Source of the DNA: Chryseosolibacter histidinae
Lineage (GTDB): Bacteria; Bacteroidota; Bacteroidia; Cytophagales; Cyclobacteriaceae
Assembly (NCBI RefSeq): GCF_018598225.1
Contig: NZ_JAHESF010000053.1
Span: 1-38,817 of the forward strand
Direction: 5' to 3'
Length of the DNA stretch: 38,817 nucleotides
Shown: in pieces, positions 1,007-38,264 of the stretch
Position numbering within the stretch: the first letter of the stretch is position 1
How the letters are laid out: each line of letters opens with the position of its first letter
The notes under the pieces: generated by a model
What the model was told of the DNA's origin: nothing
Databases searched by the model: none
The model's input: the letters and a program-made list of their open reading frames with translations, nothing else
Made by a program: the position numbers and the translations under genes

Positions 1007-1153
1007 CAGTCATGTGGTGTGAGGACATAAGCCAACCTTTGGCCTGGCAGTGGCATGTGCGGGTTGGGTTCAGTCCGAACGCCACATGACGAGGCCCCTT
1101 CCGCGGCCTCGGAGCGGAACATAATCTTATTGTTACACAAAAGCTATTTCGAA
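1007..1153 (+). repeat. Structured interspersed element, copy A
   Basis: Outer stem GTCATGTGG (1009-1017) pairs with CCACATGAC (1082-1090). Nested inside are GGAC/GTCC and CCAACC/GGTTGG pairings. A second hairpin GAGGCC (1091-1096) / GGCCTC (1105-1110) follows, then a conserved tail containing CTTATTG and CTATTTCGAAA. It lies in the 335-bp gap between two minus-strand genes, which has no coding potential that I can see. Confidence 0.85.
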
Positions 1154-4342: not shown

Positions 4343-4349
4343 GGGAGGA

Positions 4350-4377
4350 GTCCACGGTCCACAGTCGACGGTCCACG
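4350..4377. repeat. 28-bp block of four GTCCACG-type heptamers
   Basis: GTCCACG, GTCCACA, GTCGACG, GTCCACG in a row, about 75 bp before the 5' edge of structured element copy B. Same design as 919-946 and 15314-15341. Confidence 0.85.
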
Positions 4378-4452
4378 GATGCGTGAATCCGTGCTTCGAC
4401 TACAATGCCGTACACAAGTTGTTCGTAATGAACCAGTGAACGAAGCTTCTTC

Positions 4453-4602
4453 CAGTCATATGCCGTGAGGACATAAGCCAACCTTTGGCCTGGCAGGGCA
4501 TGCGCGGGTTGGGTTGAGTCCGAAGGGCATATGACGAGGCCCCCGCCGCGGCCTTGGAACGGCACCGAAAACTTATTTACTTACTCAGAATCTATGTCGC
4601 AG
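4453..4602 (+). repeat. Structured interspersed element, copy B
   Basis: Outer stem GTCATATGCC (4455-4464) pairs with GGCATATGAC (4526-4535), nested GGAC/GTCC and CCAACC/GGTTGG pairings, second hairpin GAGGCC/GGCCTT, then the AACTTATT...TCTATGTCG tail. It lies between divergent katG and the first permease gene. The remainder of this 616-bp gap shows no gene. Confidence 0.85.
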
Positions 4603-4812
4603 AAGTACAGCAGTGCTGGAACGTCTCTGGTTCGGCTTTGCTGCGTGACTTCGTAGTACGCATCAATGCGCGGAGGTCCCGATGCCATGCTCCCGGTTTT
4701 CAGTGACACTGCGTGAATCATTGACCTGGCCCGTCGGTTGACAGTGGACTTTTTTTACTGTGCATTAGGTGTGCATCAATATTTTCGGTTACTTCCTGCC
4801 AACTTCAAGATC

Positions 4813-7239
4813 ATGATCCGTAACTATCTCATCACCACCTTTCGCTCATTGTTCAAGCACAAGTTTATTTCAGCCATCAACCTGTGCGGTCTTGCTATCG
4901 GCATGACAGCCTTTCTGCTGATGGTTCAGTTTGTGATGTTCGAGCTGAGCTATGACGACTTTCATGAAAAGAGCGCAGATATCTACAGGGTGGAAAGTAA
5001 TTTTTTTCTGAATGGCGTGATGACCGATGACTGGGCTACAAGCTCAGCCGGTTACGCCACGGCCATGCAGCGCGAATTCCGTGACGTCAGGAAATTTGCG
5101 CGGATCTATCTGCAGAGCAATGAACGCATCGTGAGTTATGCAGACATCAAGCATCGTGAGAAAAACGTCTTTTTTGCAGACGCATCGTTATTCGATATCT
5201 TTTCTTTTGAGCTGCTGCAGGGAGATCCAGGCACAGCGCTCGCGGAGCCCAATACCGTTGTTATCTCCGAATCGGCAGCCAGAAAATATTTCGGTGATGC
5301 TGATCCCATTGGCAAGACGCTGAAGCTTAGCAATACACGGTCGATCTATGAGTGTGCCGTTACCGGGGTTTTCAAAGATGTTCCCGCGAACTCACATATT
5401 ACATTCGATATGCTGATCTCGTGGACCACCATGTCGAGCCGTTGGAAAGGAGTCGATGAGTTCTGGTATCAACACTCGGCCTACACGTACCTGCTGCTCG
5501 AGCCAGGCACCGACGTAGCCCGCATGGAGGCTCAGTTCCGCGTGCTCGCAGAAAAATACAAGACCGAAGACGCAATGAAGCGCCATACCTGGGGCATCAG
5601 CCTGGTGCCGCTGGAAAAGATCCACCTGAATCCGGCGAAGTCAAACGAGCACGAGGTCAAGGGAAGCCGCACAACGGTGGGGATCCTTGCCGTTACGGCT
5701 GTGCTGACACTTCTCATCGCCTGGATCAATTATATGAACCTGGCCACCACACGGGCCATGGAGCGCGCCAAGGAGATCAGCATCCGCAAAACCGCGGGAG
5801 CCAACAAGGCCATGCTCGTCAGCCAGTTCCTGCTCGAGTCCACGTTTGTCAACCTGGTGAGCCTTGCTATCGCGATAGCCGTGACGTGGCTGGTGCATCC
5901 TTACTTTCAATCGCTCACCAACACGCAGATGATCTTCTTCCTGAGCTATGGATGGCAGCCGCTCCTGGTATTGTTGGGCATCTTTGCCGCGGGCATATTC
6001 TTCTCTGGATTGTACCCGGCGATGATCCTGGCTTCATTCCATCCGATCAGCGCGTTGAAGGGTAAGATCACCAGGCATGGCCGTGGAAAATCCGTGAGGA
6101 AGGCGCTGGTTGTGTTTCAATTCACGGTATCCATAGTGTTGATCACCGTTTCTATCGTTGTATTTGAGCAGGTCAGGTTCATGCGCACGCAATCTCTCGG
6201 CATCGATACCGAGCAGGTAGTGGTGATCAAGATCCCGGGTCGCACGGAAAACTACCACGAAAAAATAGAGGGACTTCGCAACGAATTGCTGCGGGTGTCG
6301 GCAGTTTCCAATGTCACCATATCCACTTCCGTAGCAGGGAAGGAGGTAGGAATGAACCTGGCCAACCGCCGCGCGGATATCGATTCTGACCAGACCAACC
6401 TTTATGAAATGCTGAGAACCGATCCCGAGTTCATCGAAACTTACGGGCTCGAGCTGTTGCATGGAAGAAATTTTTCACGCGATATCCAAAGCGATGTGCA
6501 GGCCGTCATCGTGAACGAAGAGGCCGTCAAGCTGCTGGGGTACAAAAACAACGAAGAGGCATTGCATAAGGAGATCTATCTCGAGACCAGCGACAAGAAG
6601 TTTGAGATCATCGGTGTGGCAAAGAACTACCACCATACTTCGCTGAGGGATAAGTTCGTGCCCATCATCCTGTTCACGTCACCCGACTTTGGCTGGATCC
6701 CGTACAGCTATATCTCGCTGAAGATAACGTCTTCCAACTGGACAGAGACCTTATCAGCTGTGAAAGGTCAGTGGGACGCGCTTTTTCCTGAATCCTCCTT
6801 CGATTATTTTTTCCTTGACGAGTTCGTCGATCAGCAGTACAAGAACGATGTGGCTTTCGGCAAGCTCGTCAACATCTTCTGTGGCCTGATCATCGTCATC
6901 GCCTGCCTGGGATTGTTGGGGCTGGCATCGTACGATACTGTATTACGAAGAAAAGAAATGGGCATCCGGCAGGTGCTTGGTGCTTCGCTGGCAAACCTTG
7001 TGTTCCTGTTTTCGCGTGACGTGCTGGTGCTGCTGGCCGTGGCGTATGGCATCGGACTGCCCGTGGCGTATTGGATCGGGAGCTCGTGGTTGACCAACTA
7101 CAGTTTTCATACCGAGATCGGTGTGTGGATGCTGGCGCTTCCGGTGGTTATCCTGCTGCCGATCGCCTTTTTCACGGTAAGCTCGCAAACACTGAAAGCT
7201 GCCTTCACAAACCCGATGGATAGCTTACGGCAGGAATGA
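4813..7239 (+). CDS. FtsX-like/MacB-type permease without prefix domain, 808 aa
   Basis: Inner-membrane permease of the FtsX/MacB superfamily with duplicated architecture: TM1 (about 21-43), large periplasmic MacB-like core domain (about 45-280), three TMs (about 285-308, 340-365, 380-405), a fifth TM (about 428-450), a second periplasmic domain, and three C-terminal TMs (about 686-706, 735-755, 767-790) ending in the conserved NPMDSLRQE tail. The start MIRNYL at 4813 aligns with the conserved MFKNYF junction in the other four permeases; the frame is open back to 4738 but that extension is not protein-like. Unlike its paralogues it lacks both the N-terminal prefix and a PadR partner. No ATPase gene is nearby; substrate unknown. 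A TATTTTCG sequence at 4780-4787 could be a -7 element. Confidence 0.9.
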   Translation: MIRNYLITTFRSLFKHKFISAINLCGLAIGMTAFLLMVQFVMFELSYDDFHEKSADIYRVESNFFLNGVMTDDWATSSAGYATAMQREFRDVRKFARIYLQSNERIVSYADIKHREKNVFFADASLFDIFSFELLQGDPGTALAEPNTVVISESAARKYFGDADPIGKTLKLSNTRSIYECAVTGVFKDVPANSHITFDMLISWTTMSSRWKGVDEFWYQHSAYTYLLLEPGTDVARMEAQFRVLAEKYKTEDAMKRHTWGISLVPLEKIHLNPAKSNEHEVKGSRTTVGILAVTAVLTLLIAWINYMNLATTRAMERAKEISIRKTAGANKAMLVSQFLLESTFVNLVSLAIAIAVTWLVHPYFQSLTNTQMIFFLSYGWQPLLVLLGIFAAGIFFSGLYPAMILASFHPISALKGKITRHGRGKSVRKALVVFQFTVSIVLITVSIVVFEQVRFMRTQSLGIDTEQVVVIKIPGRTENYHEKIEGLRNELLRVSAVSNVTISTSVAGKEVGMNLANRRADIDSDQTNLYEMLRTDPEFIETYGLELLHGRNFSRDIQSDVQAVIVNEEAVKLLGYKNNEEALHKEIYLETSDKKFEIIGVAKNYHHTSLRDKFVPIILFTSPDFGWIPYSYISLKITSSNWTETLSAVKGQWDALFPESSFDYFFLDEFVDQQYKNDVAFGKLVNIFCGLIIVIACLGLLGLASYDTVLRRKEMGIRQVLGASLANLVFLFSRDVLVLLAVAYGIGLPVAYWIGSSWLTNYSFHTEIGVWMLALPVVILLPIAFFTVSSQTLKAAFTNPMDSLRQE

Positions 7240-11928: not shown

Positions 11929-14577
11929 TCATTCCGATCTCAGACTCCTCACCGGATTTGCCATCGCTGCTTTGAAAGCCTGAAAGCTCACAGTGATCAA
12001 CGCTATGACTAAAGCAGCAACACCTGCCAGCAATATTACGGTGGCATCGATGCTGATGCGATAGCCGAAGGTCTGCAGCCACTGGTGCATAGCCCACCAC
12101 GAGACAGGTGCCGCTACCACAATGGCCGCGAGCACGAGCAGCAGAAATTCCTTCGACTGCAGCAATACGATCTGCCCCACGCTGGAGCCCAGCACCTTCC
12201 GGATGCCGATCTCGCGCGTTCGTTGTTCGGCGGAGTGGGTGCTCAGACCGAACAGCCCGAGGCAGGCGATCAGAATGGCAATCACCATGAAGACAATAAA
12301 GATCTGCTCGGTAGTTTGTTCGGCTTTGTAAAGATGGCTGAACCGGTCGTCGAGGAAATAGTAGCTGAAGGGAACGTCGGCATGGAACGCGTTCCATTGA
12401 GCTTTTGTGTCGGTGATGAAGTTGCTGATGTCGCTGGTCTTTACTTTGACAAGATAGGTAGGCGCCACGCGACGGTAAAGCATCATCATTGGAGCGATCT
12501 TTTCTTTTGCCGAGGTATAATGGAAGTCTTTTACAACGCCCACTACCTGGTACTGCACCTGCGCCGACCGGTAGATGGTGCTGCCGAGCACGTTGCTCTC
12601 GTCCCATCCCAGGTTTTTCATCGCTGTTTCATTGATCACCACATTCAGCCCGAGTGAGTCGTTTGAAAACTCATTTGAGAGGTTCCGGCCCAGCACCAGT
12701 TGAAGGCCCATGGTTTCCAGAAAATCGTAATCGACCGTAAAGATATGGATGTGTGTGCCTGAAGGATTGGGGCCCCTGCTTGAAACCTCCGTGCCGCCGT
12801 AAGAGCCTGCATTGCCGATGGGCACGGTTGCATGACTGACGTGGCTCACGCGGTGGTCCTGTTCCAGCTTGCGTTTGAAGGCATCCATGTTCCCACCCAG
12901 GGCGCCGGCATTTTCAACTACCACCACCTGGTCTTTGTCATATCCCATCTCGATGTTCTGCAGAAAATGGAGCTGCTGATACGCTACGATGGTGGCCACG
13001 ATCAGCGCCGTGGAGATGGCGAACTGAAATACCACCAGCACGCTGCGAAGGTTGCTGCGCCTGGAGCCTCCCGGGGAGTTACTTTTTAGTACTCGCAAGG
13101 TCTGGAACGACGACAGGAACACAGCAGGGTAAGTTCCAGCCAGCAGGCCTACCGTGATGCCGAGCACCACCAGCGACGTGAGCACCGGTGCCGACAAAAA
13201 GAAAGAGATGCCGATCTGTTTGCCTGTGAGCTGATTGAAGAAGGGGAGGAGCGTGAGGGCAAAAACGACCGCAAATGTCAGCGCGATCATGGCGAGGATC
13301 ATCGATTCTACCAGGAACTGCGTCACCAGCTGACTGCGGAACGATCCCAAAGATTTACGGATCCCGATCTCGACACCACGCCGGGCAGCGCTGGCCGTAG
13401 ACAGGTTCATGAAGTTGATGCATGCCAGCAGCAGAATGAAGATGGCCAGCGCACCGAAGATGTATACGTTGTTGATGTCGCCGTTCGCTTCTATCTCGTA
13501 TTTGGTGTGTGAGTATAAGTGGATCTTCGACAGGGGCATCAGGTAGAACTTCCACGTATTGACAGACCGTTGTGCATCCGCCAGGCTGATCCCCATATCG
13601 TCCTGGATCTCTGGCACCACATACTTTTCGATGAGGGCCGGGAGCTTCGCTTCAAGCCGGTGCGGGTCTGCATGCTCATCCAGCAGAAGATAGGTGTGGA
13701 ACCCCACGTTGCTCCAGGTTTGCCTTCCATTCGTGATCCTGGCGTTGGAGTTCATGCTGAGGAAGGCGCTATAATGAAAATGAGAATTGTCAGGGATCTT
13801 GTCAAAAACACCGGTAACCTTCAGCGTGCCGTACCTGCGGGAAGTGAGGAGTTCGCCGAGTGCCGGCTTGTCACCAAAGTATTTTTTGGCAAACGCCCTG
13901 GAGACCACGATGCTGTTGGGTTCTGTGAGCGCGTGGTCGGCATTGCCTTCGATCAGTGGAATGGAGAACAGTCTGAGAAAATTGGAATCGGCCAGTGTAA
14001 GCCCTTCTTCCCGTACATTCACATCGCCGTACCGGAGATAGTCGAACAAATTCCCGGTGGCGCGGGTAAACTCCACAACCTCGGGGTAGTTGCTTTTGAT
14101 GCCGGCGCCTACAGCCACGTCAACGTGCGGGTAGTCGTCCACACCGCCGTTCTGTTCCAGCTGTAGTCCCACACGGTAGATGCGCTTATACTGTGCGGCG
14201 TATTGATCATAGCTGAGCTCATCATAAACAAAAGAGGCGATGAGCAGGAAGCAGGTGAGGCCGATGGCGAGCCCGAAGACATTGATCATGGAAAACGCCT
14301 TCTTGCGCATCAGGTTGCGCCACCCTGTTTTAAAGTAATTTTTCAGCATAGCAGCAGAGAATTGATTTGAGTAATAGTGTTTTGTTTTTCGCCGGATGTT
14401 TCTCCACCGGAAGAAGCGGATCACATTCCAGGTAAAATAGAGGTCGGCTTTGAACTTGCTGGCGATAACGGTCCGGTCGAACAGCTCGTGAGCATCGCCC
14501 TGGATCTCCTCGAGGCGGTCAGGGCGGCAATACCACTCCAGGAACCGGTTCGGCCATTTGGGAGGTCTTGGTTTCAT
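11929..14577 (-). CDS. PadR-linked FtsX-like permease with prefix domain, 882 aa
   Basis: Same two-module FtsX/MacB architecture as the permease at 4.8 kb (TM1 at about 97-118, a large periplasmic domain, three TMs, a fifth TM, a second periplasmic domain, three final TMs, C-terminal NPVRSLRSE). Residues 1-75 form a cytoplasmic prefix with the RLEEIQGDAHELFD motif; I recall this type being called permease prefix domain 2. The internal MLKNYF at residue 77 marks the junction. The ATG at 14577 overlaps the upstream PadR stop as ATGA; an open frame back to 14988 reads through the PadR gene and is not the start. No ATPase is encoded nearby; substrate unknown. Confidence 0.93.
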   Translation of the reverse strand: MKPRPPKWPNRFLEWYCRPDRLEEIQGDAHELFDRTVIASKFKADLYFTWNVIRFFRWRNIRRKTKHYYSNQFSAAMLKNYFKTGWRNLMRKKAFSMINVFGLAIGLTCFLLIASFVYDELSYDQYAAQYKRIYRVGLQLEQNGGVDDYPHVDVAVGAGIKSNYPEVVEFTRATGNLFDYLRYGDVNVREEGLTLADSNFLRLFSIPLIEGNADHALTEPNSIVVSRAFAKKYFGDKPALGELLTSRRYGTLKVTGVFDKIPDNSHFHYSAFLSMNSNARITNGRQTWSNVGFHTYLLLDEHADPHRLEAKLPALIEKYVVPEIQDDMGISLADAQRSVNTWKFYLMPLSKIHLYSHTKYEIEANGDINNVYIFGALAIFILLLACINFMNLSTASAARRGVEIGIRKSLGSFRSQLVTQFLVESMILAMIALTFAVVFALTLLPFFNQLTGKQIGISFFLSAPVLTSLVVLGITVGLLAGTYPAVFLSSFQTLRVLKSNSPGGSRRSNLRSVLVVFQFAISTALIVATIVAYQQLHFLQNIEMGYDKDQVVVVENAGALGGNMDAFKRKLEQDHRVSHVSHATVPIGNAGSYGGTEVSSRGPNPSGTHIHIFTVDYDFLETMGLQLVLGRNLSNEFSNDSLGLNVVINETAMKNLGWDESNVLGSTIYRSAQVQYQVVGVVKDFHYTSAKEKIAPMMMLYRRVAPTYLVKVKTSDISNFITDTKAQWNAFHADVPFSYYFLDDRFSHLYKAEQTTEQIFIVFMVIAILIACLGLFGLSTHSAEQRTREIGIRKVLGSSVGQIVLLQSKEFLLLVLAAIVVAAPVSWWAMHQWLQTFGYRISIDATVILLAGVAALVIALITVSFQAFKAAMANPVRSLRSE

Positions 14578-14912
14578 GCCATCCTGAATTGAAGCGCGAT
14601 GCGTGGAATGCGGTTGTACAACTGGTTGCGCAGCTCGTTGGTCTCTTCCAGCGAACGTTTTCCGGCAGCGGTCAGCAAAAAGATCCTTTTCCTTCGCCCA
14701 CCGCGGGCATCGGTAGGCTCGCTCATTTTTGACTCGAGCAGCCCTTTGTCCTCCAATCGCGTAAGCACAGCATGCACGGCGCTGATGTTCAGGCTCCGGC
14801 CAGCTTGTTTGTCGAGCTCGTCCATCACGGAAACGCCATATGCTTCCGGATATAAAACGCCTACCATCAATAAAACCAGCTCTTCCAGCTCGCCGATGTG
14901 TGTTCCTTTCAT
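14574..14912 (-). CDS. PadR-family transcriptional regulator, 112 aa
   Basis: Small PadR winged-helix regulator. The N-terminal GELEELVLLMVGVLYPEAYGVSVMDEL region is the first helices, ISAVHAVLTRLEDKGLLESK (about 43-62) the recognition part, and RGGRRKRIFLLTAAGK (about 70-85) the wing. The C-terminal dimerisation helix is short. It is translationally coupled by the ATGA overlap to the permease gene and preceded by a large inverted repeat at 14925-14968 that could be its own operator. The expected role is autoregulation of the operon; the inducer is unknown. Confidence 0.93.
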   Translation of the reverse strand: MKGTHIGELEELVLLMVGVLYPEAYGVSVMDELDKQAGRSLNISAVHAVLTRLEDKGLLESKMSEPTDARGGRRKRIFLLTAAGKRSLEETNELRNQLYNRIPRIALQFRMA

Positions 14913-14924
14913 AGTATTGATTAA

Positions 14925-14968
14925 CTCTACAAACGTGAAAGTAAAAAATATGTTTTACTTTTGTAGAG
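14925..14968. promoter_or_regulatory. Inverted-repeat operator upstream of PadR/permease operon 2
   Basis: CTCTACAA (14925-14932) pairs with TTGTAGAG (14961-14968), and inside it AAGTAAAA (14939-14946) with TTTTACTT (14953-14960). It lies 13-56 bp before the PadR start codon, a typical place for autorepression. Confidence 0.6.
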
Positions 14969-15079
14969 GAATTTGGATCGGAAGGCACCCGAACTCCTTT
15001 GTTTTTTCCCCGCGCTTTGGCCTTTCGCCTCCTGGGTTGATTAAGTATCAGTTATTCAATGGGTTATTGAGGTGACGCT

Positions 15080-15232
15080 TGCTGGTATGTAGAGTTTGTG
15101 TGGCAATAAGGTTCGGTCCCCGCTCCGAGGCCGCGGGGTGGGGCCTCGTCATACGCCGTTCGGACTCAACCCAACCCGCGCATGCCCTTGCCAGGCCAAA
15201 GGTTGGCTTATATCCTCACAGCGTATGACTGG
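15080..15232 (-). repeat. Structured interspersed element, copy C
   Basis: On the minus strand the outer stem is GTCATACGC (from 15229) against GCGTATGAC (to 15148). The GAGGCC/GGCCTC hairpin and ACCTTATTGCCACAC tail follow toward lower coordinates. One base in the conserved GGACATAAG box is changed (GGATATAAG). It lies between the divergent PadR genes of operons 2 and 3; no gene is present in this 494-bp gap. Confidence 0.85.
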
Positions 15233-15313
15233 AAGTGCACGTATATAATTCAGAGTCCATGGCCACTATTGGTCTAACGAAAGCAGAAATGCAGTGGCGG
15301 TGTTCCTTACAGC

Positions 15314-15341
15314 CGTGGACTGTGGACCGTCGACTGTGGAC
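15314..15341. repeat. 28-bp block of four GTCCACG-type heptamers, inverted
   Basis: CGTGGAC, TGTGGAC, CGTCGAC, TGTGGAC, the inverse of the blocks at 919 and 4350. Relative to copy C it is again on the 5' side, about 80 bp away. Confidence 0.85.
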
Positions 15342-15352
15342 TGATTATATAA

Positions 15353-15406: not shown

Positions 15407-15745
15407 ATGAAGAAAACGAAGCTTGGCGAATTCGAAGAGCTTGTTCTTCTGACCGTGGCAGCCCTTCAGCAGGAGGCGTACGGAGTGGAGATCAAACGCG
15501 AGCTCGAAGCGCGGTTGAAGCAGAAGCTCAGCGTGGGGTCCATTCAGTCGGCACTGAAACGAATGGAGGAGAAAGGATTTCTTACTTCCGATTTCGGGGA
15601 AGCCACCCAGAAAAGAGGCGGGAAACGCAAACGCATTTACGCCACCACTTCTTACGCTCATAAAGTGCTTGCCGAGCTGAAGGAGATCCGCGCCGGGTTA
15701 TGGGATGCCATGCCCAGGCTGGCACATGAACTGAAACTGATATGA
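15407..15745 (+). CDS. PadR-family transcriptional regulator, 112 aa
   Basis: Paralogue of the regulator at 14.6 kb, with GEFEELVLLTVAALQQEAYG at the N-terminus, recognition segment VGSIQSALKRMEEKGFLTSD (about 44-63) and the wing KRGGKRKRIYATT. It overlaps the permease gene by four bases (ATGA), so the two are coupled. The upstream DNA carries a 20-bp direct repeat different in sequence from the inverted repeat of the divergent operon, suggesting that each PadR recognises its own site. Confidence 0.93.
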   Translation: MKKTKLGEFEELVLLTVAALQQEAYGVEIKRELEARLKQKLSVGSIQSALKRMEEKGFLTSDFGEATQKRGGKRKRIYATTSYAHKVLAELKEIRAGLWDAMPRLAHELKLI

Positions 15746-18387
15746 TGCCGCGCAGCGATATCCATCCGCCGGAGTGGCCCCTCAGGTTGCTAAGGTTCGT
15801 GATCAAAGACGAATACATCGAAGAGATCGAAGGCGATATGGAAGAGCTCTTCCTGGCCAACGTCGAACAACTATCGGTCCGGAAAGCGCGGCGGATCTAC
15901 ACGTGGGAGATCCTCAGACTGCTGAGGCCTGTCTTGCTGAAGAATATAAAATCATCGCCCCAATTTTATCAAAATGCCATGTACAAAAACTACCTCAAAG
16001 TCGCTTACAGGAATCTGATCAAAAAGAAATCCTATTCGCTCATCAATATCTTCGGGCTTGCGCTCGGCATCGCCTGCTGCGTGTTGATCTTCATGTTTGT
16101 TCATGACGAGCTCTCGTACGACACCTACCATGTAAACAAGGACCGGATCTACCGGGTCACGCATGGCGAGTCTTCGAAGGATGGCAAGACGGGGCCGTTT
16201 TGGGTTTGGGGAAATGCACCCGTCGGCCCTGCGCTGAAAAGCGATTTTCCGGAGATCGATAAGGTTGTGCAGTTCTCGGGAAGAGCGGATATCCTGCTGA
16301 GCAATGGAGACAAGTTGTACCAGGAAGACGGTGTCTTCTTCATGGACTCTACGGCCTTCGATGTATTCAGCTGGAAAGTGCTTCGCGGTGATCCTAAAAC
16401 TGCGCTGGCCGACCCTTACAGCATTGTGCTGACGGAGACCACGGCAAAAAAATATTTCGGTGATGAAGACCCTGTTGGCAAAACACTGAAGGGAAGCGAA
16501 TCTTCAGGAAGGTCAGCTGCGGGCGACTATACTGTGACGGCGGTGATGGAAGATGTACCTGCCAATTCGCATTTCCGTTTTAATGCGCTGCTCTCGCTGA
16601 ATACTTTCCGAAAGTCGCGCCCGGAAATATTCAATGAATGGGGGTATGTTGATATGTACACCTATTTCCTGGTCAATGATCAGTTCAATGAAGCAGCCTT
16701 CAAAAGCAAGATCCCCGATTTTATAAAAAGGAACATCCAGTATCCCGATTCCAGGTATACCATCGCTATCGAGCCATTGAAGAATGCCTACCTGGGAACC
16801 GACGCAGACAGGCAACCCGGCGAGACTGGCAGCATGTCGAATATCTATGTGTTCTCGGTCATCGGTGTGTTCATTCTTGCCATTGCCATGATCAACTTCA
16901 TGAACCTTTCCACCGCCAGGTCACTGGAGCGGAGCAAAGAGGTGGGCATCCGGAAATCGGTAGGCGCAGACCGGAGAAACCTGATCTCGCAGTTCCTGGG
17001 CGAGTCGCTGCTCATCGTATGCCTGTCTACCGTGGTAGCGCTGGTGATCGTTGTCACGGCATTACCCTACATGACGGATTTTATCGGTAAGGAATTTGCC
17101 ATCGAAGGCTTCGTAACGTGGCAGAACATTTCATTCTTCGTTGCGGTGATGTCTGTGGTGGGATTGATCGCCGGCTCGTATCCGGCCCTGGTGCTTTCAG
17201 GCTTTAACCCGGTAATGATCCTCAAAGGGATCTCGAGGTCGCAGGCGGGTGGTGCCAACATGCGGAAGGGGCTGGTGGTATTCCAGTTCAGCCTGTCCAT
17301 TGCGCTGATCGCCGGTACCATCGTTGTATACGATCAGATGAGCCTGCTGCTGAACAAGGACCTCGGATTCGATAAGGAACAAATGCTCATTGTGGATTAT
17401 AACTATGATGGCGCTGTGAACAACAAATCGCAGGCGCTGAAAACCGAGCTGGAAAAGAATCCCTCCATTGTATCGGTAGCTTTTACCCGAAGTGTGCCGG
17501 GTGGTTACTATCCCCATGCCTACACGCAGATTGAAGCGCCAGACGGCGAAATGAAAGGTCAAGGGCAGCCCATTTTCCAGGTGGGCATGGATTTCGTTAC
17601 GCATTTTGGACTGGAGCTGGTGGCAGGCAGAACATACTCAAAGGAATATCCGTCAGACAGCTCGAAGGCGCTGGTGCTCAACGAGTCGGCGGCAAGGCAA
17701 TACGGCTATACCGATCCCAAGCAGATCGTTGGAAAAAAATTCGACCAGTGGGGCAGGGCAGGTGTGGTGATCGGTGTGGTGAAGGATTTCAATTTCACTT
17801 CTTTGCATCGCACCATCGAGCCGCTCACGTTGCCGTTTGAGCCCTATGCATGCCGTTATATGTGCATCAAAGTTAAGTCTGCGGGCATGAGAGAAACCAT
17901 TAACGCCATAGGTGAGGTCTGGAAACAGCTGGCACCCCACAGGCCATACCTGTACAGCTTTCTCGATGATGACTTCGAAAGGCAATACAAGTCCGATCTC
18001 ATGTTCAGGAGACTGTTTACAACCTTTGCCTGTCTCGCGATCTTCATCGCCTGCCTGGGATTGTTAGGACTGGCCACCTATACGGCACAGCAGCGCACCA
18101 AAGAGATCGGCATCCGAAAAGTGTTGGGCGCGGATGTGAGGCATATTGTTGCTTTGTTGTCGGCCGATTTTATGAAACTGGTCCTCATCGCTGTCGCCAT
18201 CGCCACGCCCGTTGCATGGTACGCCATGAACCAGTGGCTGCAAGGGTTCGCCTACCGGATGGAGATCCACCCCACGGTCTTTATCCTTGCGGGATTGATT
18301 GCCCTTTCGATAGCGGTCTTCACCATCAGCTTTCAGTCCATCAAATCCGCCTTGATGAATCCGGTGAAATCCTTGCGGAGCGAATAG
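15742..18387 (+). CDS. PadR-linked FtsX-like permease with prefix domain, 881 aa
   Basis: Prefix domain at residues 1-78 with PPEWPLRLLRF and IEEIEGDMEELF, then the junction MYKNYL at residue 80, TM1 at about 99-120, periplasmic MacB-like domain containing AKKYFGDEDPVGKTLKG, three TMs, a fifth TM, second periplasmic domain, and three C-terminal TMs with QRTKEIGIRKVLGA between the first two. The C-terminus NPVKSLRSE is nearly the same as in the paralogues. The start codon overlaps the PadR stop. FtsX-type permeases work with an ATPase or a periplasmic partner; neither is encoded here, and the substrate is unknown. Confidence 0.93.
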   Translation: MMPRSDIHPPEWPLRLLRFVIKDEYIEEIEGDMEELFLANVEQLSVRKARRIYTWEILRLLRPVLLKNIKSSPQFYQNAMYKNYLKVAYRNLIKKKSYSLINIFGLALGIACCVLIFMFVHDELSYDTYHVNKDRIYRVTHGESSKDGKTGPFWVWGNAPVGPALKSDFPEIDKVVQFSGRADILLSNGDKLYQEDGVFFMDSTAFDVFSWKVLRGDPKTALADPYSIVLTETTAKKYFGDEDPVGKTLKGSESSGRSAAGDYTVTAVMEDVPANSHFRFNALLSLNTFRKSRPEIFNEWGYVDMYTYFLVNDQFNEAAFKSKIPDFIKRNIQYPDSRYTIAIEPLKNAYLGTDADRQPGETGSMSNIYVFSVIGVFILAIAMINFMNLSTARSLERSKEVGIRKSVGADRRNLISQFLGESLLIVCLSTVVALVIVVTALPYMTDFIGKEFAIEGFVTWQNISFFVAVMSVVGLIAGSYPALVLSGFNPVMILKGISRSQAGGANMRKGLVVFQFSLSIALIAGTIVVYDQMSLLLNKDLGFDKEQMLIVDYNYDGAVNNKSQALKTELEKNPSIVSVAFTRSVPGGYYPHAYTQIEAPDGEMKGQGQPIFQVGMDFVTHFGLELVAGRTYSKEYPSDSSKALVLNESAARQYGYTDPKQIVGKKFDQWGRAGVVIGVVKDFNFTSLHRTIEPLTLPFEPYACRYMCIKVKSAGMRETINAIGEVWKQLAPHRPYLYSFLDDDFERQYKSDLMFRRLFTTFACLAIFIACLGLLGLATYTAQQRTKEIGIRKVLGADVRHIVALLSADFMKLVLIAVAIATPVAWYAMNQWLQGFAYRMEIHPTVFILAGLIALSIAVFTISFQSIKSALMNPVKSLRSE

Positions 18388-23794: not shown

Positions 23795-23975
23795 CAGTCA
23801 TACGATGTGAGGACATAAGCCCAACCTTTGGTCTGGCAAGGGCATGTGCGGGTTGGGTTGAGTCCGAACAGCGTATGACGGGGCCCTCCGCGCTGTGCCC
23901 GCCGCAGCTTTAGCGAAGGCGGGGCCTCGGAGCGCTCCGGAACCTTTATCGCTACACCAACCTTACTTCGCAAAA
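23795..23975 (+). repeat. Structured interspersed element, copy D, with nested insertion
   Basis: Outer stem GTCATACG (23797-23804) pairs with CGTATGAC (23872-23879). The inner box is AAGCCCAACC, pairing perfectly with GGTTGGGTT. The second hairpin GGGGCC...GGCCTC is enlarged by a GCCCGCCGCAGCTTTAGCG-type palindrome at about 23894-23922, also known from 11848-11874. The conserved tail ACCTTTATCGCTACAC follows. The rest of the 23711-24082 gap shows a CCGGT/ACCGG hairpin at about 24027 and no gene. Confidence 0.8.
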
Positions 23976-24082: not shown

Positions 24083-24415
24083 GTGAGTCGTCACCAGCTT
24101 GGAGAATTTGAAGAAATTGTAATGCTTACCGTAGGCATTCTTTATAAGGAAGCTTATGGCGTTGCCATCATCGATGAAATTGAAACGCGCATGAACCGCA
24201 AGGTGAGCATCGGGTCGCTGCAGACCGTGCTGAGACGCCTCGAAGGGAAAGGCTATCTGACATCCGAGTTCGGCGAAGCCACCAATGTGCGGGGCGGCAA
24301 GCGAAAACGATACTTCAGCCTTACAACCCTCGGCTCACGTGTATTACGCGAAACACAGGAACAACGTCAGGAGATGTTTAAAGCGATCCCGCGTGTCGCA
24401 TTCCCCAAGTCATGA
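24083..24415 (+). CDS. PadR-family transcriptional regulator, 110 aa
   Basis: Starts with GTG at 24083, giving the canonical SRHQLGEFEEIVMLTVGILY N-terminus shared with the other PadR proteins here. The recognition segment is IGSLQTVLRRLEGKGYLTSE (about 44-63) and the wing NVRGGKRKRYFSLT. The four-base ATGA overlap with the permease gene implies coupling. The three other PadR genes use ATG. Confidence 0.92.
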   Translation: MSRHQLGEFEEIVMLTVGILYKEAYGVAIIDEIETRMNRKVSIGSLQTVLRRLEGKGYLTSEFGEATNVRGGKRKRYFSLTTLGSRVLRETQEQRQEMFKAIPRVAFPKS

Positions 24416-27033
24416 ATCAGCTACCCGGCATACAACCTCCAGCGCTCTTCCTCCGGTTCTTCCGGTGGTTCTGCAATCCCGCGTTTGCGGAAGACATCGA
24501 AGGCGATCTCGTGGAGATGTTCGGACGTGACGCCGCCACCGGTAACCTTACCCGGGCGCGGATGCAGTTCTCGATTCGTGTGCTTCGCCTGTTTCGTCCC
24601 GGCATCATCAGAAAGATCGGTTATCAGTCATCCTATATCCATCCATTACCTATGTTCAAAAATTATTTCATCACCTCCCTGCGTTCGCTGATGCGAAGCA
24701 AAGGTTTCTCGACCATTAACATTGTGGGGCTCGCCGTGGGCCTGGCTACCTTCAGCCTCATCTCGTTCTATGTTTACCACGAGCTCTCATTCGACCGTTA
24801 TCATCAGAATGCCGACCGCATCTTTCGCATCGTCGAGAACCTGAAAACGGAGAATGAAATGCTCTTTCAATCCACCAGCTCTCCGCCGATGGGTCCACGC
24901 TTCCAGAAAGATTTCCCGGAAGTTGAAAGCTATGTGCGTTTTCAGCAATGGAGCCTGCTGGCGCAGCGTAATGACATCACCGGCTACGAGTCCGACAGCT
25001 ACATCGCCGACAGCACCGTGTTCGACGTCTTCAGCTTCAAGCTGCTGGCGGGTGATAAAAAGACAGCACTGCGCGAGCCTTATTCCATTGTGCTCACGCA
25101 GTCGATGGCAAAAAAATATTTCGGTAACGAAGACCCCGTCGGTCAAACGTTGAAGATGGATTACGACAATTACAAGGTAACAGGTGTGATGGAGGATGTG
25201 CCCGGCAATTCTCACTTCCGGTTCTCGAACCTGATCTCGTTCTCTACATGGAGCCGCAACAACAAAGACGCGGAAGATCGCGCGTGGTTCTGGAACGGTT
25301 TCCATACGTATGTGCTGCTGCGCGATGCTCAGTCGGCAGACAAGGTGCGTGCAAAGATGAAGGACTTCCTGAAAAGAAATGTCGAAAAGGGTGGCATGTA
25401 TTACGAAGACCTTCCGCTGCAGCCGCTGACCGGCATTTATATGGCTCCTGAACGCTCTTGGGAGAATGGCACCCGGGGCAGCATGAGCAACGTATACATT
25501 CTTTCCATCATTGCTGTGTTCATACTCCTGATCGCGTGCTTCAACTACATCAACCTGACCACCGCCCGCGCCTCACGGCGTCTTAAGGAAGTAGGACTTC
25601 GTAAAACACTAGGCGCGCAGAAAAGAATGCTGATCGCGCAGTTCCTGGGCGAGTCACTGATCGTCACCCTGCTTTCTTCGCTCATGGCGGGCATCCTGGC
25701 CTGGATCGCGCTGCCCGCATTCCGTACACTGGTTGAATCTCCGCTGGACTTTTCGGTTTTACCGGAAGCGTGGAAGGTGATTGGCGCAACGCTGGGGCTG
25801 GTACTCATCGTAGGATTGCTGGCAGGTGGTTACCCGGCCTTCATTATATCACGCTTTGAGCCCGTGCAGATCTTTCGGCCATCCGCCCAGGGTATCTTCG
25901 GCCATCACAATCTCAGAAAGGTGCTGGTTGGTATTCAGTTCCTCATCTCCATCACGCTGGTAGCCGGAACCATGCTCGTGTATGACCAGTTGGATGTGGT
26001 CCGTAAACAGGACCTGGGCTTCGATAAGGAGGGCATGATCGTGGTACCCACCAATGGCGACACGGCTATCGTAAAATATCTCGATGCCGTCAAAAATGAG
26101 TTGATGCAGGTGCCCGGAGTACAACATGTCGCTGGCTCCCGCCAGATCCCCGGGCAGAATGCGAACAATTTATATACGGAGATCGAAATGACGGGCGGAA
26201 AAATGTCACCGACCAATATCAACTACAATTTCGTAGATCATGATTTTCTAACCACCTATAATATCAAGCTGCTGGCAGGGCGTGATTTCAGCCGCAGTGT
26301 ACAGGCAGACGACACCACAGCGTACCTGATCAACGAGGCTGCCATCAAAGATTTCGGCTGGACTCCGGAAGAAGCCATCGGCAGGAAAGTAAGGAGGGGA
26401 CGCGAGGGCAAGATCATCGGTGTGATCAAAGATTTCCATTACCGCTCGCTGCACACCAAAGTAGAACCCATGATGATCGGCATGACCAATTATGTCGGGC
26501 GCCTGTCCATCCGTCTTGAGAAGAACGGTGATGTGCCGGCTACGGTAGCGCGCGTGGAGAAAAAATGGCACGAGCTCATCCCTTATCTTCCGTTCGACTA
26601 TTCTTTCCTCGATGTTGAGTTCGACCGTCAATATAAGGCTGACCAGCAGCTGGGTAAAGTGGCAGGTGTGTTTACCGGGCTCGCTATCTTTATCGGATGC
26701 CTCGGTCTGTTAGGGCTCACGTCATTTGTGGTGGAGCGCAGAACAAAAGAGATCGGTATCCGCAAAGTGCTGGGTGCGTCGGTGCCCAGTGTGGTGATGC
26801 TGATCACACGTGAGTTCATCTGGCTGATCGCCATTGCGCTGATCATGGCTACGCCGCTCACGTGGTACCTCATCGATCAATGGGAGCAGAACTTCACCTT
26901 GCAGGCTGCGATCAATCCGCTTCGGTTTGTGATGGCAGGCACGGCGGTGTTCATGGTTGCCTGGCTCACCATCAGCTTCCTGTCACTGCGCGCGGCCAAT
27001 GCCAATCCCGCGAAAGCGCTGCGAACAGAATAG
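24412..27033 (+). CDS. PadR-linked FtsX-like permease with prefix domain, 873 aa
   Basis: Prefix domain 1-80 with PPALFLRFFRWF and EDIEGDLVEMFG; junction MFKNYF at residue 81; TM1 about 100-122; MacB-like periplasmic core containing AKKYFGNEDPVGQTLK; TM2-TM4; TM5 near LVGIQFLISITLVAG; second periplasmic domain; and TM6-TM8 with RRTKEIGIRKVLGAS. The C-terminus is NPAKALRTE. A 12-bp stem hairpin follows at 27065-27103. As with the paralogues, no ATPase gene is near, and what it moves or pulls on is unknown. Confidence 0.93.
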   Translation: MNQLPGIQPPALFLRFFRWFCNPAFAEDIEGDLVEMFGRDAATGNLTRARMQFSIRVLRLFRPGIIRKIGYQSSYIHPLPMFKNYFITSLRSLMRSKGFSTINIVGLAVGLATFSLISFYVYHELSFDRYHQNADRIFRIVENLKTENEMLFQSTSSPPMGPRFQKDFPEVESYVRFQQWSLLAQRNDITGYESDSYIADSTVFDVFSFKLLAGDKKTALREPYSIVLTQSMAKKYFGNEDPVGQTLKMDYDNYKVTGVMEDVPGNSHFRFSNLISFSTWSRNNKDAEDRAWFWNGFHTYVLLRDAQSADKVRAKMKDFLKRNVEKGGMYYEDLPLQPLTGIYMAPERSWENGTRGSMSNVYILSIIAVFILLIACFNYINLTTARASRRLKEVGLRKTLGAQKRMLIAQFLGESLIVTLLSSLMAGILAWIALPAFRTLVESPLDFSVLPEAWKVIGATLGLVLIVGLLAGGYPAFIISRFEPVQIFRPSAQGIFGHHNLRKVLVGIQFLISITLVAGTMLVYDQLDVVRKQDLGFDKEGMIVVPTNGDTAIVKYLDAVKNELMQVPGVQHVAGSRQIPGQNANNLYTEIEMTGGKMSPTNINYNFVDHDFLTTYNIKLLAGRDFSRSVQADDTTAYLINEAAIKDFGWTPEEAIGRKVRRGREGKIIGVIKDFHYRSLHTKVEPMMIGMTNYVGRLSIRLEKNGDVPATVARVEKKWHELIPYLPFDYSFLDVEFDRQYKADQQLGKVAGVFTGLAIFIGCLGLLGLTSFVVERRTKEIGIRKVLGASVPSVVMLITREFIWLIAIALIMATPLTWYLIDQWEQNFTLQAAINPLRFVMAGTAVFMVAWLTISFLSLRAANANPAKALRTE

Positions 27034-29797: not shown

Positions 29798-29950
29798 CAG
29801 TCATATGCCGTGAGGACATAAGCCAACCTTCGGCCTGGCAGGGGCACGAGCGGGTTGGGTTGAGTCCGAAGGGCATATGACGGGGCCACCTCGCCGCGGC
29901 CCCGGAGCGGCGCCAAACCTTATTGCCAACACAGAGTCTATTTTTCGAAA
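29798..29950 (+). repeat. Structured interspersed element, copy E
   Basis: Outer stem GTCATATGCC (29800-29809) pairs with GGGCATATGAC (29871-29881). The second hairpin is GGGGCC/GGCCCC, a paired change from GAGGCC/GGCCTC in copies A and C. The tail ACCTTATTGCCAACAC...TTTTCGAAA is conserved. It fills the gap between the divergent MFS and LpxR-like genes. Confidence 0.85.
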
Positions 29951-31154: not shown

Positions 31155-31302
31155 TGATAGGTAGATTTATCTGAGCAACATAGTTTCGGGTCCCGCTCCG
31201 AGGCCGCGGGGGGCCACGTCATACGTCGTTCGGACTCAACCCAACCCGCTCGTGCCCCTGCCAGGCCAAAGGTTGGCTTATGTCCTCACGTCGTATGACT
31301 GA
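31155..31302 (-). repeat. Structured interspersed element, copy F
   Basis: On the minus strand, outer stem GTCATACG (from 31299) pairs with CGTATGAC (to 31218) with one internal mismatch further in; nested CCAACC/GGTTGG; second hairpin GTGGCC/GGCCTC with one mismatch. First unit of the tandem duplication. Confidence 0.85.
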
Positions 31303-31398: not shown

Positions 31399-31546
31399 TG
31401 ATAGGTAGATTTATCTGAGCAACATAGTTTCGGGTCCCGCTCCGAGGCCGCGGGGGGCCACGTCATACGTCGTTCGGACTCAACCCAACCCGCTCGTGCC
31501 CCTGCCAGGCCAAAGGTTGGCTTATGTCCTCACGTCGTATGACTGA
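31399..31546 (-). repeat. Structured interspersed element, copy G
   Basis: Identical to copy F, shifted by 244 bp (outer stem 31462-31543). Second unit of the tandem duplication. Confidence 0.85.
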
Positions 31547-35301: not shown

Positions 35302-35649
35302 ATGTCATCGCGAAATAACCTGGGTGAATTTGAAGAGATCGTCATGCTTACCATCGGTGTGTTGGGGGAGAATGCTTACGGCCTCGCTATCAAAGAACAT
35401 ATTGAATCACGATTGAACCGGGTTGTGAGCATGGGAGCGCTGCACACCGGACTATATCGCCTCGAAGAAAAAGGATATCTGAAATCCAAACTTGGTAAGG
35501 CAACAAACGTGCGGGGTGGAAAACCGAAACGATTCTTCATTGTGACCAACGGCGGTCAGAAAGCATTGAAGAAGGCGATGGAAGACCGGCAGCAGCTCTG
35601 GAAAGATATCCCCGAGGGTGTGTTCAAACTTTTCCCGTCACAGTCATGA
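35302..35649 (+). CDS. PadR-family transcriptional regulator, 115 aa
   Basis: Fourth PadR paralogue: GEFEEIVMLTIGVLGENAYG, recognition segment MGALHTGLYRLEEKGYLKSK (about 43-62) and wing NVRGGKPKRFFIVT. It is slightly longer at the C-terminus than the others. It overlaps the permease gene by ATGA. It most resembles the 24.1-kb PadR in the first 30 residues, suggesting these two duplicated from each other more recently. Confidence 0.93.
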   Translation: MSSRNNLGEFEEIVMLTIGVLGENAYGLAIKEHIESRLNRVVSMGALHTGLYRLEEKGYLKSKLGKATNVRGGKPKRFFIVTNGGQKALKKAMEDRQQLWKDIPEGVFKLFPSQS

Positions 35650-38264
35650 GCAAACCTCCGAAAATACTGGACTGGTTTCTGGACGCATGTTGTCCTGACA
35701 GCCGCCCCGATCTTAAAGGCAATTTCCTGGAGCTGTACGATGACCGGCTGCGTGAACGCGGGAGATCGTTTGCTAACCGAAAGCTGCTGCGAGACACGTT
35801 CAGCATTATACCGTTGAAATTTATTGTTAAGGAAGAAAGACATACCCCTGTACCCATGTTCAAGACCAACCTCAAGATCGCGCGACGGATCCTCCTCAAA
35901 AACAGGATGTATACCGCCATCAACATCATCGGGCTTTCCGTAAGCCTTGCCATTTGTGTTCTGATCGCTCTTTTTATCCAGGATGAGCTCAGCTTCGATC
36001 AACATTTCCAGGATGGCGACAAGGTGTATCGCATTGCGGGAAATTATTCACAGGGCGGCGCCGACCGGGTTACCAGCGCGCAGACAACGTACCTGATCAA
36101 ACCATTGATCGAAAAGGATGTTGACGGCCTCGAGGCGATCACACGCGCGGATTTCACTGCCGACCTGGTGACGATTAACGGCGACAAGCAATACCAGGAA
36201 CGCGCCATGGTCTTTGCCGACTCGACCTTTTTTGATGTGTTCAGGATCCCATTCCTGAAAGGTGATGTTGCCACTGCGCTGGACCGGCCTGAGAATGTTG
36301 TGGTTGACCGGACAACTGCCATCAAATACTTTGGCACGGACGATGTTCTTGGCAAAACGGTAGCGCTGCGGGGCAAACAGTTTATGATCACGGGTGTGTT
36401 TGAACCGCTTCCGGGCAATACCCATTTTCAATGTAGCATCGTTTTTCCGATCTCGGGTATCAAACAATGGTATCCTGATTGGGTGCTGACCAACGCCTCG
36501 GGCACGAGCTTGTACACCTACATCCGTACAAAAGAAAACTTCAGTGCCGCCGGGTTTGAAGCCGCCGTGAGCAAACAGATCGCAGCGCGCTGGGGCTGGG
36601 AGGGCAGCGGGGCGCCCAAATATTTTGTACAGCCACTCACCTCCATCCACCTCGAATCGAACCTGCAGGGCGAGGCGGGCGTGAATGGAAGTAAATCAAC
36701 TGTTTACATCTTTGCCGTTACGGCCATTGTGATCTTCATCCTGGCTTGCATCAATTATATTAACCTGACCACGGCAGCGTCATTTCAGCGGGGCAAAGAG
36801 GTAGGAATAAAAAAAGTACTGGGTTCTACTACCCGCATGCAGCTTTCGCAATTTCAAACCGAGTCATTCATCGTGGCAACCATCGCTGTGACGATTGCTG
36901 TTATTCTTGCGAGGCTGGCCATCCCTGTATTCAACGAGCTGAGTGGAAAAACACTGGGCTTCAACCCGTTTATCGATCCGCTGGTAGGCATCGGGTTACT
37001 GGTTGTATTGATCCTGGTCGGTGCGGTGGCCGGCATCTCGCCTGCATTCGTGTTGCTGCGGACCACCACCATCGGTATGCTTTACGACAAACTAGCTTTG
37101 CGCAGCATCAAATCGTACCTGCGGAGCGGTCTTATTGTTTTTCAGTTTTCAATTTCCATTACACTGATCACGTGTACACTGATCGTGATGGACCAGATCT
37201 CCTTTATCAGAAAACGGGACCTTGGTATCGATCCGGAGTCGGTTGTTCTGATCCCGCTTCAGACCCCGGAGATCGCTTCAAAGCTCGAGCTCATCAAAAC
37301 CGAGATGACGCGCGTGCCCTCGGTTTTAGGTGTTTCGGCATCCGGCAATAAAGTAACGGAAAGAGTAGGAGGATGGCGCCAGTATAAAACGGACCCAGCG
37401 CAAAAAGATGTAATAAATTGTGCGAGTACAGCAGTGTCCTATGACTTTTTCGAAACCATGAAAGCGACAATGGCTGACGGACGTGCTTTTTCGAAGGAAT
37501 ACTCGACCGACCTGCTCACAGGTTATGTATTGAATGAGTCTGCGGTAAAATTTTTAGGTATGGAGGATCCTGTTGGAAAAAACCTGCAGGGCACTACATT
37601 CACCGGATCAGAGTGGTTCAGACGCGACGGGCAGGTTATTGGCGTTGTGAAGGATTTTCATTTCGCGTCCCTTCACGATAAGGTACAACCTGTGATCTTT
37701 TACCTCGCCTCGGCGCAAACAGAATCATGTTCGTGGCTGGAAGTACGCATCCTGAGCGGAGATATGCCAAAGACCATCGAATCGTTGAAGAAGGTCTGGG
37801 CCAATGTCGCCGGTTCGCGTCCCTTCGAATTTGAGTTTATGGATGAAGCGGTGGCAGCGCACTATCAGGCCGAAGACAGGTTCTTAAAGGTATTTACAAC
37901 ATTTTCTGTGTTATCCATTATGCTCGGCGGCCTTGGGCTGTTTGGTCTCACGGCATTTGCAGCGAAAAGAAGAACGAAAGAGATCGGTATTCGCCGGGTG
38001 ATGGGGGCCAGCACCGCCACGTTGATCAAAGTTCTGTCAGCCGATTTTCTCAAGCTGGTGCTGGTGGCCAACATCATCGGGTGGCCGATCGCGTCCTATT
38101 TTATGAACCAGTGGATGACGAATTTTGCCTATCACGCTCCCATGCCTGTGTGGGTGTTTATCGGTACCGGTATTGGTGTGCTGGTGATTGCCTTCCTGTG
38201 TGTTTTGTATCATTCACTGAAAGTATCGCGGACCAGCCCGGTGAGATCTCTACGAAGTGAATAG
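35646..38264 (+). CDS. PadR-linked FtsX-like permease with divergent prefix, 872 aa
   Basis: Prefix residues 1-70 retain PPKILDWFLDACCP and an altered DLKGNFLELYDDR in place of the EEIEGDxxELF seen in the others. The junction MFKTNLKIARRI at residue 71 differs from MFKNYF. TM1 about 90-112, MacB-like core, TM2-TM5, second periplasmic domain, TM6-TM8 with RRTKEIGIRRVMGAS, C-terminus SPVRSLRSE. It is the most divergent of the four PadR-linked permeases in this window. A GGGGAACT/AGTTCCCC hairpin follows. No ATPase partner; substrate unknown. Confidence 0.92.
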   Translation: MSKPPKILDWFLDACCPDSRPDLKGNFLELYDDRLRERGRSFANRKLLRDTFSIIPLKFIVKEERHTPVPMFKTNLKIARRILLKNRMYTAINIIGLSVSLAICVLIALFIQDELSFDQHFQDGDKVYRIAGNYSQGGADRVTSAQTTYLIKPLIEKDVDGLEAITRADFTADLVTINGDKQYQERAMVFADSTFFDVFRIPFLKGDVATALDRPENVVVDRTTAIKYFGTDDVLGKTVALRGKQFMITGVFEPLPGNTHFQCSIVFPISGIKQWYPDWVLTNASGTSLYTYIRTKENFSAAGFEAAVSKQIAARWGWEGSGAPKYFVQPLTSIHLESNLQGEAGVNGSKSTVYIFAVTAIVIFILACINYINLTTAASFQRGKEVGIKKVLGSTTRMQLSQFQTESFIVATIAVTIAVILARLAIPVFNELSGKTLGFNPFIDPLVGIGLLVVLILVGAVAGISPAFVLLRTTTIGMLYDKLALRSIKSYLRSGLIVFQFSISITLITCTLIVMDQISFIRKRDLGIDPESVVLIPLQTPEIASKLELIKTEMTRVPSVLGVSASGNKVTERVGGWRQYKTDPAQKDVINCASTAVSYDFFETMKATMADGRAFSKEYSTDLLTGYVLNESAVKFLGMEDPVGKNLQGTTFTGSEWFRRDGQVIGVVKDFHFASLHDKVQPVIFYLASAQTESCSWLEVRILSGDMPKTIESLKKVWANVAGSRPFEFEFMDEAVAAHYQAEDRFLKVFTTFSVLSIMLGGLGLFGLTAFAAKRRTKEIGIRRVMGASTATLIKVLSADFLKLVLVANIIGWPIASYFMNQWMTNFAYHAPMPVWVFIGTGIGVLVIAFLCVLYHSLKVSRTSPVRSLRSE

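Follow-up and report, generated by a model that had tools for sequence, protein, structure and literature searches.

A repeat of 115–150 bp, present in seven copies in a 38,817-nt stretch of the Chryseosolibacter histidinae genome (contig NZ_JAHESF010000053.1, hereafter the window), has the base-pair covariation of a multi-stem, pseudoknotted fold, and its relatives were detected in five families of one bacterial order. We are inclined to regard it as a new family of non-autonomous, RNA-structured dispersed repeats, either MITE-like or bcr1-like. An earlier note, made from the letters of the window, had offered three readings: a dispersed structured RNA, a REP-like element moved by a RAYT transposase, or a non-autonomous mobile element. 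The first and the last remain and may both hold, whereas the REP-like reading is unsupported by the present results.

Seven matches to GTGAGGACATAAGCCAACC were found in the window at up to three mismatches (chance mean 0.01), together with seven matches to GGGTTGGGTTGAGTCC (chance mean 0.22). As these numbers are far above chance and the copies defined by the covariance model agree with them in position (Table 1), the seven structured copies in both orientations described in the earlier note are real. The positions given there also agree with the model, except that the starts of the minus-strand copies take in some 3' flank. The window contains at most six independent insertions, because copies 6 and 7 are the two halves of a perfect tandem duplication. 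In the whole genome (8.04 Mb, 122 contigs), the covariance model detected 16 copies at E ≤ 0.001, of which seven are concentrated on the single 38.8-kb contig that forms the window. An additional copy on contig 31 is truncated within the apical loop, and a second subtype of the element occurs in the same genome (C42:48654-48773). Copies beyond the window, on which the earlier note had let its proposal depend, are thus found in the same genome, as they are in its relatives.

Table 1. Copies of the element in the window and structural parts of copy 2 (window coordinates)
Feature	Positions	Strand	Remarks
Copy 1	1007-1122	+	P1-P2-P3 hairpin and P4/pseudoknot; covariance model
Copy 2	4453-4567	+	Named in the earlier note; covariance model
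Copy 3	15115-15231	-	Covariance model
Copy 4	23795-23940	+	Palindromic insert inside P4 loop; covariance model
Copy 5	29798-29915	+	Covariance model
Copy 6	31188-31301	-	Within one half of a perfect 244-bp tandem duplication
Copy 7	31432-31545	-	Within the other half of the perfect 244-bp tandem duplication
Copy 2, P1 outer stem, 5' side, GTCATATGCC	4455-4464	+	Pairs with 4526-4535; covariation
Copy 2, P1 outer stem, 3' side, GGCATATGAC	4526-4535	+	Covariation
Copy 2, P2, 5' side, GGAC	4469-4472	+	Near-invariant in own genome, covaries among relatives
Copy 2, P2, 3' side, GTCC	4518-4521	+	Pairs with GGAC 4469-4472
Copy 2, P3, 5' side, CCAACC	4478-4483	+	Pairs with GGTTGG 4507-4512
Copy 2, P3, 3' side, GGTTGG	4507-4512	+	Pairs with CCAACC 4478-4483
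Copy 2, apical loop	4484-4506	+	Most copies from the window's family are TTYGGNCTGGCANNGGYATGYGCG-like here
Copy 2, P4 hairpin	4536-4555	+	4536-4541 pairs with 4550-4555
Copy 2, pseudoknot	4545-4563	+	4545-4548 pair with 4560-4563; covariation

Read 5' to 3' on the plus strand, the element begins in most copies with CAG. Three stems then follow, P1 of up to 11 bp, P2 of 4 bp and P3 of 6–8 bp; a short internal loop separates P1 from P2, and another internal loop separates P2 from P3. P3 ends in an apical loop, which for the majority of copies in the window's family measures about 23–24 nt and is close to TTYGGNCTGGCANNGGYATGYGCG. The 3' strands of the three stems come next and are directly followed by P4, a short GC-rich hairpin with a GGCC/GGCC core. 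The last bases of the P4 loop pair with bases beyond a short spacer, usually ending in GGA, and thereby form an H-type pseudoknot; in copy 2 the adjoining pair, 4549-4559, is a C-A mismatch. P4, the covarying pseudoknot and the second subtype had all been overlooked in the earlier note. The apical loop has been replaced in the families f11 and f13 and survives in part in f5, with P1, P2, P3, P4 and the pseudoknot retained throughout. Some copies carry inserts within the P4 loop or the apical loop, and in several (copy 4; L013, L020, L024) a palindromic repeat with a core like GTAGCGATAGCGAAGGCGG was observed inside the P4 loop or the apical loop. In f13 (e.g., L137, L138, L143), conservation extends for roughly another 80 nt on the 3' side, and a motif on the 5' side of these copies, GCTATCGAA, can pair with GGATAGC of this extension, which suggests an outer stem and a longer RNA; by eye, the motif is similar to the flank CGAAGCT..CTTCCAG of the window's genome.

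The paired changes of the outer stem reported in the earlier note were borne out by the copies of the genome itself. Among 12 of them, six of the 24 pairs change on both sides, a number reached in 0 of 500 shuffles and compared with three in the best slid control, in which pairing partners are displaced. The number of further pair types was not above that of the shuffles (312/500), and the outer pair of columns 16-82 is unpaired in seven of the 12 copies. When P4 and the pseudoknot were included, eight of 36 pairs change on both sides in nine copies (best slid control, three). The nested pairings that the note had also proposed are less variable in this genome: GGAC/GTCC is without any both-side change, and a single pair of CCAACC/GGTTGG covaries, in one copy outside the window. 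As the copies of this genome scarcely vary there, the P2 and P3 stems rest on the relatives, in which both are supported by covariation.

The alignment of 60 distinct sequences from 50 loci, which was fitted to a model, keeps 95.4% of the pair cells (shuffled mean 70.0) and contains 435 double-change cells, compared with 126 in shuffled alignments and at most 93 in slid controls, with a covariation score of 0.650 against 0.194 and at most 0.140, respectively. Double changes occur at 21 of the 28 pairs; no slid control has more than 17, but this number lies within the range of the shuffles, which average 19.6 and attain it in 92 of 500. A second model-fitted alignment contains 33 sequences, of which 24 come from other families; here 94.8% of the cells pair, 24 of the 28 pairs show double changes (shuffled 18.6, 0/500 as high) and 238 cells are double changes, compared with at most 63 in the slid controls. 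The same architecture was recovered from a MAFFT alignment of the 60 sequences made from sequence alone, with a consensus energy of -84.7, compared with a mean of -24.5 and a minimum of -34.9 in 30 column-shuffled alignments. Compensatory pair changes exceed the controls, as is characteristic of structured RNAs, and selection on a folded strand, as the earlier note supposed, is strongly supported and extended by covariation above shuffled and slid controls on most measures, the slid-partner test being the sole control for phylogeny.

The pseudoknot was assessed in 102 distinct copies, of which 95 could be parsed, giving 50 unique signatures, at least five of them visibly mis-split; the other seven of the 102 did not conform to the pattern and were excluded. 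At position 1 the pair is almost invariably C-G, which makes it uninformative. Position 2 pairs in 43 of the 50 signatures compared with 25.6 expected (0/5000 shuffles as high), with G-C in 29 and C-G in 11 of them, position 3 in 33 compared with 25.1 (2/5000) and position 4 in 25 compared with 17.3 (17/5000).

At well-supported pairs, G-U outnumbers A-C by 40 to 10 in the 76 sequences of the window's family set, by 31 to 9 in the 60 sequences of alignment A6 and by 123 to 11 in 88 copies from other families, although these three counts may be tilted towards G-U by the fit to a plus-strand model. In the 12 copies of the genome itself, whose alignment was unfitted, the ratio is 15 to 1, with 11 of the 15 G-U cells coming from one pair. 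The excess of G-U over A-C therefore favours the plus strand as the one that probably folds. Folded singly, five window copies in plus sense have z values between -4.0 and -4.6, and the single reverse strand that was folded gave -1.3. For several copies, model R1 also gives a weak match on the reverse strand, at 29–36 bits compared with 41–141, and the consensus energy of the reverse strand in the MAFFT alignment of 60 sequences, -79.0, is close to that of the plus strand. Two opposite-strand matches were dropped from alignment A5 before the later counts, and six weak ones are also present in the R1 results. The selected single strand is most simply RNA.

Three covariance models were searched against genomes of increasingly wide taxonomic groups, in overlapping draws whose counts each include the window's own genome. 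Model R1 gave full-length matches in 22 of the 390 genomes drawn from the window's family, representing 7 of 84 genera. R2 gave such matches in 30 of 390 genomes from the order, spread over five families and 10 of 130 genera, and R3 in five of 395 genomes from the phylum, one of which, with three matches, is from another order. Copy numbers in these searches are lower bounds, as eight or nine candidates were scored per genome. R3, trained on 25 of 85 loci with the remainder brought in by R2, hit all 85, with 88 hits in total. A pattern search of the 22 model-positive genomes matched 17 of them, with 0 to 29 hits per genome and the maximum in G150, and the reversed pattern gave at most one hit in any of the 22. 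Among named genomes, a looser pattern matched 17 stretches and a stricter one none; the carriers identified with the looser pattern are Chryseolinea serpens, C. lacunae, Chryseosolibacter indicus, Fulvivirgaceae bacterium JP3-4 and the MAG UBA2366, and both Chryseolinea and Chryseosolibacter belong to the order Cytophagales. Judging from their element sequences, G001 and G002, two genomes of the window's genus, are probably C. indicus and JP3-4. No match was found in plasmids with three copies as queries, in phages with one copy as query, or in viral contigs with two element patterns. In the genome from the other order (G1075; L256, L258, L263), P1 and P2 are seemingly merged into one long stem, and the ORFs within 3.5 kb of its three copies include no transposase, as judged by eye from the protein starts; these copies may have been acquired by horizontal transfer.

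By simple ORF calls, 81 of the 102 copies overlap no ORF of at least 90 aa, and the other 21 overlap such ORFs, three of which are predicted to exceed 150 aa (294, 308 and 630 aa). An all-against-all comparison of neighbouring ORFs revealed no neighbour family recurring across genera, apart from common genes and ORFs running through the element itself, and no transposase recurring beside the copies. An encoded transposase or IscB/TnpB-like neighbour was likewise not recurrent, and the protein starts of ORFs within 3.5 kb of a cluster in one relative also include no transposase by eye. Among the 88 copies from other families, four pairs of genomes share both gene neighbours of a copy, with the element inverted in one of them, and eight more pairs share one neighbour. 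As copies lie between the same two genes in four genome pairs, some copies are old and stay put.

The orientation of the copies bears on two of the rival explanations. The downstream gene is in sense for 52 and in antisense for 50 of the 102 copies. In the window's family there is no bias (tandem in the same direction 19, opposite 16, convergent 17, divergent 15, edge 10), whereas a moderate bias along transcription is seen in f13 (25, 11, 21, 8 and 1, in the same order) and f5 (10, 2, 4 and 2 for the first four classes); f11 and f16 contribute three copies in all to this count. A riboswitch-like leader acting in cis on downstream genes would fit the pseudoknotted, aptamer-like architecture and the four of seven window copies that precede a gene in the same direction, but the even division between sense and antisense rules against it, and because no neighbour family beyond common genes recurs across genera and the window's family has no orientation preference, we consider a leader very unlikely. 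The element might also be a stability or processing element of 3' UTRs and intercistronic regions that selection has spread, comparable to RNase III or terminator-type hairpins. The co-directional tandem copies of f13 and f5 and the predominance of convergent over divergent contexts in f13 speak for this second rival, but copies are also located in divergent promoter regions and those of the window's family are unbiased in both tandem and convergent versus divergent contexts, and we regard it as improbable. That copies in tandem contexts follow gene direction in f13 and f5 speaks for a role at the RNA level.

The main rival holds that the copies are paralogous genes for trans-acting small RNAs that work through the apical loop or the pseudoknot. 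Such genes would account for the presence of the pseudoknot, for an apical loop that is strongly conserved in the majority of copies from the window's family, for the orthologous sites of some copies and for the orientation that follows the genes in two families. However, the apical loop, which would be the natural target-binding part, is just what is replaced in f11 and f13 and partly kept in f5, no flank motif common to all families was seen by eye, copy number is very uneven (from 0 to 29 by one pattern in the 22 model-positive genomes), and inverted pairs and truncated copies exist; small RNA genes are thus a serious but rather unlikely reading. A REP-like single-stranded DNA hairpin, moved by a Y1 (TnpA_REP) transposase, would be compatible with plus-strand folding, and the genome does have Y1 transposase genes (four matches). 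A search of the four Y1 loci, with about 1.5 kb on each side, nevertheless gave no hit to any of seven element motifs or, at E ≤ 1, to model R2, and a multi-stem pseudoknotted element of 115–150 bp is far longer than a palindrome of 20–40 bp, so this proposal of the earlier note appears highly doubtful. By eye, the Y1 genes (L043-L046) seem to be flanked by hairpins of their own that are unlike the element.

No gathering-score match was obtained with Rfam 15 (4227 families) in the window and 20 relatives' loci, and when three stretches were scanned at a permissive cut-off, all hits were to unrelated families and weak, far below the gathering score. No description of the element was found in the literature, in which subscription journals were thinly covered and an earlier description is possible. 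Within the databases and literature searched, the family is new and was placed in no known one. HEARO, the omega RNA of IscB (RF02033), is a dispersed structured RNA with pseudoknots that is tied to mobility. The element would be alike as a dispersed pseudoknotted RNA, but no recurrent neighbouring protein was seen; RF02033 gave no gathering-score hit among the 20 relatives' loci and no match in the window's genome, where control genomes gave none either, so the latter result is no proof of absence. Integron attC sites have conserved AAC/GTT core sites and share one orientation within a cassette array, and this candidate was rejected, as the P3 bases vary in relatives (e.g., CCUAUC/GAUAGG) and copies occur in both orientations.

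The bcr1 repeat, which has a conserved RNA fold in which we know of no pseudoknot, is closest in behaviour, being dispersed and multi-copy with mobile-like traits. The dispersed repeats of B. cereus are described as 100–400 bp long and confined to one species group, with bcr1 averaging 39 copies per strain and showing features of mobile elements (PMC6542083), and bcr1 is counted among the MITEs lacking coding capacity (PMC3733652). The present element differs in its unrelated host group and in its spread over five families and a genome of another order. MITEs, ERIC and NEMIS among them, are characterized as short, non-coding, foldable, near genes and bounded by terminal inverted repeats of 15–30 bp (PMC3733652). 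The element resembles them in the first four respects, and it is without coding capacity, multi-copy and mostly located between genes, but its conserved inverted repeat has the character of an RNA stem, with unpaired loops that are conserved too. REP, BIME and REPIN sequences are described as intergenic, palindromic and often arranged in close pairs of opposite orientation (PMC3733652), as is the element; single REPs are given as 20–40 bp long and tagged GTAG or CGTC. The element differs from them in its multi-stem pseudoknotted fold and in having no link to the Y1 genes of its own genome.

Several traits point to mobility. Sequence types are mostly alike within a genome and different between clades, few neighbours are shared between copies, truncated and inverted-dimer copies occur, copies 6 and 7 form a perfect tandem duplicate, those of the window's family are unbiased in orientation, and all seven copy pairs of G150 that lie within 1.1 kb of each other face outward. 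Because types are lineage-specific, shared locations are few, and inverted, tandem and truncated copies exist, we infer that the element has been mobile. The behaviour of a dispersed repeat, combined with a selected fold, therefore argues for a non-autonomous, mobile-like element that is recognised by its fold. The information of such a MITE-like or bcr1-like element would lie in the folded strand, read from the plus strand; it may spread as a MITE-like passenger, with machinery encoded elsewhere recognising the fold, and may be tolerated, or used, as structured RNA in transcripts of the intergenic spaces. Comparison of a 3.6-kb Chryseolinea locus and 16 kb of the window with relatives, in which synteny was too weak, revealed neither a clean empty site nor a target-site duplication.

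A more speculative and rather improbable variant is a protein-less mobile RNA, a bacterial analogue of SINEs, with a conserved core of P1-P4 and the pseudoknot and an exchangeable apical module, the fold itself being recognised and moved. It might be moved in trans, for example by a reverse transcriptase or by an RNA-dependent transposase, and would have spread through one bacterial order and at least once beyond. To our knowledge, small dispersed bacterial repeats are mostly simple hairpins confined to narrow groups. The present element stands out through its multi-stem pseudoknotted fold, its strong covariation and its occurrence in five families of a single order and in one genome outside that order. 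The covariance model can be used to annotate many environmental genomes, and the fold raises the question of what recognises it, at the RNA or the DNA level.

Some rearranged copies were also observed. L163, L164 and L165, from two g16 genomes, are inverted dimers that have lost the centre and consist largely of sequence from the element's 3' part. In G108 (L173:461-521, L174:498-558), an isolated apical module enclosed by a ATTTTATCCGC/GCGGATAAAAT stem, without P1, P2 and P4, follows a full element in inverted orientation after about 120 bp, twice.

The window contains further repeats and paralogous genes. Tandem Repeats Finder located three GTCCACG-type heptad arrays (918-948, 4349-4378 and 15313-15343), which lie 59–82 bp off the 5' side of an element and all have the same strand orientation with respect to it. 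Further arrays of period 7 (GTTTCAA, AACTTTA, AACCGGC, CTTTAAA, AACCTTA and others) occur elsewhere. Five paralogous ABC-transporter permease genes, FtsX/MacB-like by eye, are located at 4738-7239, 11929-14988, 15742-18387, 24412-27033 and 35646-38264. Four of them adjoin small PadR-like regulators, and three of the seven window elements lie directly upstream of ABC-permease units.
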